Below are positions 53,414-58,967 of a stretch of DNA of 64,000 nucleotides, piece after piece. Made by a program: the position numbers and the translations under genes. A model generated the notes under the pieces. The model was given only the letters and a program-made list of their open reading frames with translations, was not told the DNA's origin and did no database searches. Position 1 is the first letter of the stretch. Each line of letters begins with the position of its first letter. Source of the stretch: Gammaproteobacteria bacterium (GTDB lineage Bacteria > Pseudomonadota > Gammaproteobacteria > Burkholderiales > Gallionellaceae); NCBI GenBank assembly GCA_018814405.1, contig JAHIZO010000007.1:62001-126000 (forward strand). The letters run 5' to 3'.

Positions 53414-55882
<2,469 letters not shown>

Positions 55883-55933
55883 TTTTGTAGGTTTGTAGGT
55901 TCTCAGAAAAGGTGAAATTATTATCACCAAATG

Positions 55934-55964
55934 AAATGGCCACAGTTACTGTGGCCATTTTTAT
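55934..55964 (+). terminator. terminator hairpin, copy 1 (downstream of gyrB)
   Basis: AAATGGCCACAG-TTA-CTGTGGCCATTT followed by TTATT; perfect 12-bp stem. Confidence 0.88.
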
Positions 55965-56015
55965 TAAAAGAGAAGCACGAAACTTACATAAGCCAATAAC
56001 TACGGGTATTGAAAG

Positions 56016-56120
56016 AGGGGCGCTCAGAAAGCGCTGTGGCTCGTTAAATGTGCCGCCCTGAGGCGGCTAGCCCATAAAACCTTAAAAGCGGCGTATGGGC
56101 TTATAAACGAGCCGAACCCT
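56016..56120. other. candidate structured RNA (multibranch inverted repeats) in gyrB-topA spacer
   Basis: Nested helices AGGG/CCCT, GCGCT/AGCGC, GGCTCGTT/AACGAGCC, GCCGCC/GGCGGC and AGCCCATA/TATGGGCT, no ORF support. Confidence 0.45.
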
Positions 56121-56266
56121 GTCCGCTCAAAACCTCATACAATTTGGTGTTGGTAATATGTTCTTATGGGAATCACCTTTTGTTTTCTCCTGATTAAAAA
56201 TTGGGCAGCGTACTCGGATTAGCCGGTCAATTTTCTGTGCGCGGCAACAATTATTCTCGCCAAATG

Positions 56267-56297
56267 AAACGGCCACAGTTTCTGTGGCCGTTTTTAT
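56267..56297 (+). terminator. terminator hairpin, copy 2
   Basis: AAACGGCCACAG-TTT-CTGTGGCCGTTT followed by TTAT; perfect 12-bp stem, near-duplicate of copy 1 at offset 333 bp. Confidence 0.8.
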
Positions 56298-56351: not shown

Positions 56352-58967
56352 CTATTTCTTGGCGGCCTTCTTAACCGCGGGTTTCTTTTCGGTAGCTTTG
56401 GCAGTGGACTTTTTAGTTGTTGTTGCTTTAGAGGCAGTTTTTTTGGCCGAAGTTGTTGCAGTTTTGGTGGTTTTCTTGGCTGACGCCTTTTTGGCCGTTG
56501 CTTTTTTGGGAGCTTTGGCTTTGCCAGTGCCGCCCTTTGCGGCTCTTGCGGCGATTAGCTCAAGAGCCTCTTCCAATGTAACCGCTTCCGGTGTTACATC
56601 CTTGGGCAAGGTGGCGTTGATCTTGCCGTGGCGTACATAAGGGCCATAGCGTCCACTACACACTTCGATAGGAGCTTTGTCATCTGGGTGCTCACCAAGC
56701 GCGCGCAACACTGTGGCACCCCCTGCCTTGGCCTGTGAGAGTAATTCCACAGCACGTTCTAAACCAATATCGAAGATGCTGTCAGTGCGCGGGATAGATT
56801 TGAACTTTCCATCGTGCCCAATGTATGGACCGAAGCGACCAATATTGACGATGACCTTCTTGCCGCTTTCTGGGTGAATACCCACTTCTCTTGGAAGAGA
56901 TAGCAACTTAAGCGCAGACGCAAGGTCGGCTCCCTCCAAGGGAAGCTCCTTCGGCCAGGAAACCCGTTTGGGTTTTGTCTTGACGCCTTCTTCCTGTTCG
57001 CCCAGCTGAACGTAAGGACCGTAAGGGCCGCGTAACAACAAAACGACTTGTTTGGTATCCGGGTGCTCGCCTAGCTCCTTGCGTGCTTCTCCAGTGTCTT
57101 CTTCTCCGTCAAGGCTGCGAGTAAAGTCGCACTCAGGATAACCGGTACAACCGATGAAATTGCCTCGTTTTCCAAGTCGCTTGGAAAGCGGCTTGCCGCA
57201 CTTGGGGCAAGCTTCTTCCAGAATTTCGGTGCCAGGACGATCGACATCCTTCTTATCAACAATCAGCTTATGAAAGCCCGTCCAAAAGGCATCAAGCACA
57301 GGTATCCAATCTCGCTTGCCTTCAGAGATTTCGTCCAGTTCATCTTCAAGATTGGCGGTAAAACTATAATCGACATACTTTGTGAAGTGCTCGTTAAGGA
57401 ATTTAATTACGACGCGACCCACATCAGTGGGCATGAAACGCTTCTTATCGAGTGTTGCGTATTCGCGAGCTTGCAGCGTGGAGATGATGGCGGCATAGGT
57501 AGAAGGACGACCAATGCCATACTCTTCAAGTGTTTTTACCAGGCTGGCCTCAGAATAACGAGGTGGAGGCTGGGTAAAGTGCTGCTCACCATAGAGTTTA
57601 TCGATTGGCAAAACATCGCCTTCCACTAGGGGCGGCAACTTCGCGCTATCCTCTTCCTCAGCATCATCCACATCTTCCATGTAGACGCCAATAAAACCTG
57701 GAAACACCAAGGTTTGGCCACTTGCTCTGAATAGGGTGTCATCACTGCTCAGGCGAATATCAACACTAACCGTGTCAAAGCGTGCAGGCGACATTTGACT
57801 GGCCAGAGTGCGTTTCCATATCATTTCGTACAAACGCATCTGGTCAATGTTCAGATGGTCTCGAAGACTATCGGGTGATCGTTCAATAGAAGTAGGACGA
57901 ATCGCTTCGTGCGCCTCCTGGGCATTCTTTGATTTGCTTTTGTAGGTGGGTTGCTTTCCGGGCAGGTAATCGGAAGCGTAATTATCTTTGATATAGTCAC
58001 GAATCTCCGCGACGGCTTCGTTGGCCAAATTCAAGGAATCGGTACGCATGTAGGTGATCAAACCTATGGTCTGTCCGCCGATATCAACGCCTTCATACAA
58101 TGACTGTGCGGTGCGCATAGTGCGATCGGATGTCATGCCAAGTTTGCGGACCGCTTCCTGTTGAAGGGTAGAGGTCGTAAAGGGCGCAGCAGGACTTCGC
58201 TGCTTTCCCTTTTTATCCACACGAACAACCTTTGGAGGCAATTTGGCATCATTTAGCTTGGCATGGATCGAGTCATATTCACCCTGGCTGCCGATGCTGA
58301 GCTGTTCCAGTTTGTTACCTTGATACTGAAAGAGTTTAGCTTTGAACGGAATACCGATTTTCTGGCTATCCAGATGTACGGACCAATATTCCTGACTATT
58401 GAACTTCTCGATCTCCAGCTCACGCTCGACGATAAGGCGAAGCGCAGGACTTTGAACGCGGCCGGCAGAAAGCCCGGGTCTGATCTTGCGCCACAGCAAA
58501 GGAGAGAGATTAAAGCCAACCAGGTAGTCCAGAGCTCTTCGAGCCTGTTGGGCATTTACCAATGGCATCGAGATCTCTCTGGGTTTGGCGACAGCTTCTT
58601 GGACAGCACTTTGCGTGATCTCATAAAAGACGACGCGTTGCATGTTCTTCTTTTTGAGTGTGCGCTTACTTTTAAGTAGTTCAGCGATATGCCAAGCGAT
58701 AGCCTCACCCTCGCGGTCCGGGTCGGGTGCGAGAAAGATGTTGTCAGCTTCCGCTGCGGCTTTGGCAATGGCATCGACATGCTTAGAGTTACGAGCAATG
58801 GTCTCGTAGTTCATTGCATAGCCGTTATCAACGTCAACAGCGCCGTTTTTGGGGATCAGGTCGCGAACATGACCGTAGGAAGCGAGAACCTCAAAGTCCT
58901 TGCCTAGATATTTCTTGAGTGTCTTGGCTTTGGCTGGGGACTCAACAATAAGCAGATTGGTTGCCAT
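56352..58967 (-). CDS. topA: DNA topoisomerase I with Lys/Ala/Thr-rich C-terminal tail
   Basis: MATNLLIVESPAKAKTLKKYLGKDFEVLASYGHVRDL; ITYMRTDSLNLA; zinc-finger-like CPKCGKPLSKRLGKRGNFIGCTGYPEC; K/A-rich tail. Confidence 0.97.
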   Translation of the reverse strand: MATNLLIVESPAKAKTLKKYLGKDFEVLASYGHVRDLIPKNGAVDVDNGYAMNYETIARNSKHVDAIAKAAAEADNIFLAPDPDREGEAIAWHIAELLKSKRTLKKKNMQRVVFYEITQSAVQEAVAKPREISMPLVNAQQARRALDYLVGFNLSPLLWRKIRPGLSAGRVQSPALRLIVERELEIEKFNSQEYWSVHLDSQKIGIPFKAKLFQYQGNKLEQLSIGSQGEYDSIHAKLNDAKLPPKVVRVDKKGKQRSPAAPFTTSTLQQEAVRKLGMTSDRTMRTAQSLYEGVDIGGQTIGLITYMRTDSLNLANEAVAEIRDYIKDNYASDYLPGKQPTYKSKSKNAQEAHEAIRPTSIERSPDSLRDHLNIDQMRLYEMIWKRTLASQMSPARFDTVSVDIRLSSDDTLFRASGQTLVFPGFIGVYMEDVDDAEEEDSAKLPPLVEGDVLPIDKLYGEQHFTQPPPRYSEASLVKTLEEYGIGRPSTYAAIISTLQAREYATLDKKRFMPTDVGRVVIKFLNEHFTKYVDYSFTANLEDELDEISEGKRDWIPVLDAFWTGFHKLIVDKKDVDRPGTEILEEACPKCGKPLSKRLGKRGNFIGCTGYPECDFTRSLDGEEDTGEARKELGEHPDTKQVVLLLRGPYGPYVQLGEQEEGVKTKPKRVSWPKELPLEGADLASALKLLSLPREVGIHPESGKKVIVNIGRFGPYIGHDGKFKSIPRTDSIFDIGLERAVELLSQAKAGGATVLRALGEHPDDKAPIEVCSGRYGPYVRHGKINATLPKDVTPEAVTLEEALELIAARAAKGGTGKAKAPKKATAKKASAKKTTKTATTSAKKTASKATTTKKSTAKATEKKPAVKKAAKK

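Follow-up and report, generated by a model that had tools for sequence, protein, structure and literature searches.

The stretch of inverted repeats at positions 56016–56120, in the spacer between gyrB and topA of the 64,000-nucleotide segment of Gallionellaceae DNA analysed here (the window), is probably a decayed remnant of the inner edge of a Tn7-like transposon that was once inserted just after gyrB and carried a restriction enzyme gene. The preliminary description had presented this stretch as a candidate multi-helix RNA, possibly a switch or pseudoknot. Judged from its single close homologue, the five-helix fold is very probably not a maintained RNA structure, because the homologue loses base pairs without compensation, lacks the fold and retains pairs only to the extent expected under random mutation. 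A different, ~90-nt element located in the same interval in related genomes is the real structured-RNA lead and is possibly functional.

Table 1 Features of the gyrB–topA spacer and the flanking genes (positions in the window)
Feature	Positions	Strand	Basis or remark
gyrB	53453..55882	+	ORF translation; a Tn7-like element family apparently uses the 3' end for attachment
Tn7-like transposon left terminal sequence (TGTAGGTTCTCAGAAAAGGTGAAATTATTATCACCAAATGAAA)	55894..55938	+	Starts 11 bp past the gyrB stop
Direct repeat, copy 1	55916..55964	+	Hairpin and tail of the transposon left end
Bidirectional terminator-like hairpin, GGCCACAG TTA CTGTGGCC	55934..55960	.	Inverted repeat, 26/27, from self-comparison
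Diverged copy of the ~90-nt gyrB–topA element (model R1)	55990..56035	-	Local alignment
Five nested helices, 31 pairs	56016..56120	.	All pairs present; 11 lost in G009
Cargo gene hsdR, relic 3' end (KLYEVLSGQGSARL-stop)	56101..56145	-	Translation; DNA homologous to G009
Direct repeat, copy 2	56249..56297	+	Truncated left-end-like sequence plus hairpin 56267–56293; adjoins topA
topA	56352..58967	-	ORF translation; convergent with gyrB

Directly past the gyrB stop, the window, the genome G009 and several other species share the sequence TGTAGGTTCTCAGAAAAGGTGAAATT. In the relative G014, this sequence forms one end of a ~24-kb element, the opposite end of which repeats it in inverted orientation and contains internal repeats; the inverted ends (TGTAGG...CCTACA) are flanked on both sides by the 5-bp target duplication ATTTT. 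Its gene products include a TnsA-like nuclease, an rve transposase, TniB/TnsC and TniQ, along with the restriction-modification subunits HsdR, HsdM and HsdS. In the Pfam comparison, the TnsA-like N, TniB and TniQ domains scored above the curated cut-offs and the rve (TnsB) match was marginal (32.2 vs 32.6 bits), with HSDR_N, HsdM and Methylase_S identified in the cargo. The TnsA, TnsB, TnsC and TniQ genes, the TGT...ACA ends with their internal repeats, the 5-bp duplication, the near-fixed distance past the 3' end of a conserved gene and the defence cargo are all shared with Tn7 and the Tn7-like elements that use TniQ/TnsD selectors (PMC11406308, PMC10293859), and identify the G014 element as Tn7-like. 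The left end of the G014 element recurs, together with hsdR cargo, in the genomes G013 and G024, and G013 also contains homologous tns-type ORFs, recognized by eye in the sequences. The distance between the gyrB stop and the element end is 10–12 bp in the window, G009, G013, G014, G024, G030, G010 and G254, the last from another genus, and 2–3 bp in G015 and G486.

Several observations concern individual copies of these elements. The gene between hsdS and hsdR in G014 (L140:4203-5948) matches the PADLOC models Orf5/HEC-06/SspE, which suggests a composite defence cargo in this transposon; inspection of the larger ORFs of this copy gave no sign of CRISPR genes. G030 includes a second topA contig (L145, G030:C32) with the same transposon end ~100 bp from topA, which may represent contamination or a second locus.

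The attachment sites named for Tn7-like elements include glmS, tRNA genes and parE (PMC11406308). The elements described here differ in that the apparent target is gyrB, the paralogue of the reported parE site; gyrB is an essential gene and in the window lies near dnaA. By gyrB comparison, the closest named relatives of the window are Gallionellales and Sideroxydans genomes, a placement in or near Gallionellaceae. We found no report of gyrB as a Tn7-like attachment site in the literature searched, most of it outside subscription journals (PMC8649781, PMC10293859, PMC11406308, PMC12452197). By analogy with TnsD at glmS, and in parallel with the known parE-targeting elements, the TniQ/TnsD-type protein would read the 3' end of gyrB and direct insertion just downstream.

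Only the left end of such an element is recognizable in the window, where it is 90–96% identical over 43–59 bp to the left ends of the G014, G013 and G024 elements. We searched the window for a transposon right end and found none; the TnsA, TnsB, TnsC and TniQ genes are absent from the relic, which is deleted, and, compared with the intact elements, the region from the left end to hsdR is dissimilar beyond the first ~50 bp. Unlike the intact Tn7-like elements, the window thus retains one end and a cargo stub only. In the lineage of the window, most of the element would have been deleted after insertion, leaving one end, the gene stub, two hairpin terminators and the inverted repeats.

The cargo stub is best seen through G009, where the C-terminal residues of an hsdR stub match the full-length type I restriction enzyme HsdR of the G014 element (53 aa, 68% identity, E 2e-23). 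The window keeps the last 14 hsdR codons only, in the same DNA as in G009; unlike HsdR, this stub is non-functional, and it is identified as an hsdR remnant through its DNA homology with G009. Of the helix arms, AACGAGCC and CCCT consist of hsdR codons, and position 56101, on which the TATGGGCT arm ends, is the first base of the hsdR stop codon. The hsdR codons and stop hence supply 3' arms, so that the nested hairpins extend across the point at which a dead restriction gene ends; the earlier statement that no ORF accounts for the stretch is to this extent incorrect, given the overlap of these arms with the relic coding end of the minus strand. The spacer is 86% identical between the window and G009, in contrast to about 41% for the third codon positions of gyrB in the same pair, and the third positions of hsdR are 0.73–0.75 identical between species, compared with 0.48–0.67 for the host gyrB. 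Such greater similarity of the spacer and hsdR than of the host gyrB is expected for a horizontally moving element.

The relic is also repetitive. The terminator-like hairpin previously noted at 56267 is real (GGCCACAGTTTCTGTGGCC followed by a T run), and a near-identical hairpin, together with its flank, is additionally present upstream, at 55934–55960. The two belong to a 49-bp direct repeat (55916–55964 and 56249–56297; 90% identity by self-comparison), the copies of which, each with a terminator-like hairpin, bracket most of the relic. This repeat is probably the trace of repeated insertion or deletion at the gyrB–topA site.

As a structure in a single sequence, the proposed fold was confirmed: direct inspection showed that all 31 pairs of the five helices are Watson–Crick at the coordinates originally given, and the nested arrangement was reproduced by the MFE fold of 56010–56126 on both strands. 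The MFE is -48.6 kcal/mol on the plus strand (z -3.41; -3.51 in an independent run) and -52.6 kcal/mol on the minus strand (z -4.96; -4.62 in an independent run). In a comparison with 426 other segments of 117 nt from the window, among which 9 reach z <= -3.4 and 3 reach -4.6 on either strand, the fold stability of the stretch is unusual but not unique, placing it roughly in the top 1–2% of the window. No Rfam family matched the stretch at the gathering score; at a loose E-value, the spacer produced only sub-threshold, chance-level matches, and 20 relatives yielded nothing credible. A search for a promoter-like site detected none, and a plasmid collection contained no match to it.

Among the 158 genomes of the family, G009 is the only one with a close homologue of the stretch, located at the same gyrB–topA site (~86% identity over 262 bp). 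In this homologue, 11 of the 31 pairs are lost, with 0 compensatory changes, and the sequence folds no better than its shuffles (z -1.4 on the plus strand and -0.8 on the minus strand). Differences between the window and G009 affect 9 of the 60 paired sites and 22 of the 203 sites elsewhere. Under a random-mutation null, the probability of keeping at least as many pairs as observed is 0.98 on the plus strand and 0.84 on the minus strand, or 0.28 on the latter with free transition direction, such that pair retention equals the random expectation on both strands. The covariation that a five-helix RNA should display in homologues was thus looked for and is absent in the single close one available, and the same pair loss, the null-level retention and the lack of a promoter-like site leave the switch or pseudoknot unsupported.

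These comparisons bear on two ways in which the stretch could act as RNA. The plus-strand fold (z -3.4) and the presence of hairpin terminators on both sides would fit the original proposal of a free-standing structured small RNA that includes a switch, but we consider this extremely improbable in view of the missing Rfam match and promoter-like site, the 11 of 31 pairs broken in G009 with none compensated, and the fact that each G/A change at a paired site breaks a plus-strand pair. Read on the minus strand, all such differences (6/6) are of the type that leaves a G–U pair; this hints weakly at constraint on that strand, with a non-significant random test. The minus strand could accordingly encode a functional RNA, namely, a 3' UTR or terminator of hsdR or of a read-through topA transcript, retained for the sake of stability or termination: this strand folds better (z -4.6 to -5.0), 6 of the 11 pairs lost on the plus strand would be G–U on the minus strand in G009, and the minus-strand hairpin of the R1 family, described below, covaries in relatives. 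We nevertheless regard this explanation as unlikely, given that pair retention is that of random mutation (P 0.84; 0.28 with free transition direction), that in G009 the minus strand is no more stably folded than shuffled sequence (z -0.8) and that the gene served would be a dead stub. Under the preferred interpretation, as a transposon relic, the five-helix fold would have no present function, its hairpins being those of the 3' flank of the dead gene combined with a diverged copy of the R1 family.

The preliminary description had also allowed for a DNA-level mobile element. This part of it holds insofar as the spacer appears to be the remnant of a Tn7-like transposon, but not in the form of a multi-copy MITE, because the element is single-copy. 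A REP- or MITE-type dispersed repeat was considered owing to the motif AAGCCAATAACTACGGGTAT at 55990–56009, which resembles a palindromic repeat with ~52–63 copies each in G017, G021 and G026; the likeness to REP/REPIN palindromic repeats, a short motif around AAGCCAATAAATACGGGC, is limited to the first ~20 bp, outside the five helices, whereas structure and flanks differ. The 126-bp element occurs once in its own genome, which otherwise contains only a 17-bp match, and no flanking duplication was seen; a dispersed repeat is therefore a highly unlikely explanation, and membership of the window copy in a REP family or MITE was rejected on account of its single copy. The palindromic repeat itself, centred around AAGCCAATAAATACGGGCAT, recurs 52–63 times in each of the genomes of three species in the genus (L226–L243 and L245 in G021; G017; G026), is often paired with an inverted partner ~50 bp away and is REP/REPIN-like.

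The expectation of a structured element between gyrB and topA gains some support at the level of the family, for a different sequence of which the window has a diverged copy only. A ~90-nt single-copy sequence is present in the gyrB–topA interval of 12 other genomes of the genus, a count that excludes G014, which matches by the flanking hairpin only. The covariance model built from 14 sequences (R1) matches 31 of the 158 family genomes, in three genera, at E <= 0.1, and is single-copy in nearly all of them. At 20 or more of the 30 R1 loci, gyrB or topA lies within 1.5 kb in constant orientation, R1 being co-directional with topA. The matches (L258–L283 and, in addition, L056:1886-1992) belong to no Rfam family.

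The R1 minus-strand hairpin shows moderate covariation: double changes amount to 20 cells against 8.7, beyond all 500 shuffles, in an alignment that was fitted to the model and in which one pair dominates; a free RNAalifold run was weak. Short conserved peptides within the element were rejected by eye for want of a consistent start codon. Since single cargo genes precede the conserved element in several species, an integron attC site was also considered, but visual inspection revealed no core-site sequences. Downstream of gyrB in L043, L046 and L055, between gyrB and R1, there are tiny ORFs such as MFTLAIKLELSYKQLVQIIGLLLMFFS with a terminator, which look like small type I toxin-like peptides.

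In the window, the segment 55990–56035 aligns locally to the R1 element with a score of 42 (shuffle maximum 33; 0/200) and keeps 9 of the 15 R1 pairs, while the covariance model itself gives no match there; by sequence, the segment is a diverged copy of R1. Beside the left end in G014 and G024, the corresponding score is reached by 74/200 and 9/200 shuffles, respectively, and the similarity is not significant or weak. The copy in the window is located between the transposon end and hsdR, in contrast to its position beside topA in other species. We tentatively put forward, as a joint claim that is rather doubtful in its entirety, that R1 is an unreported structured RNA of a Gallionellaceae-like betaproteobacterial family, that the window copy was split from topA by a Tn7-like insertion and that Tn7-like elements use gyrB as an attachment site not reported before.

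A strong-looking multi-helix fold can, then, arise from the debris of a mobile element. For these bacteria, gyrB would join the apparent settling sites of Tn7-like elements that carry restriction systems, in parallel with its paralogue parE, and R1, a small conserved element beside topA, merits attention as a possible RNA.
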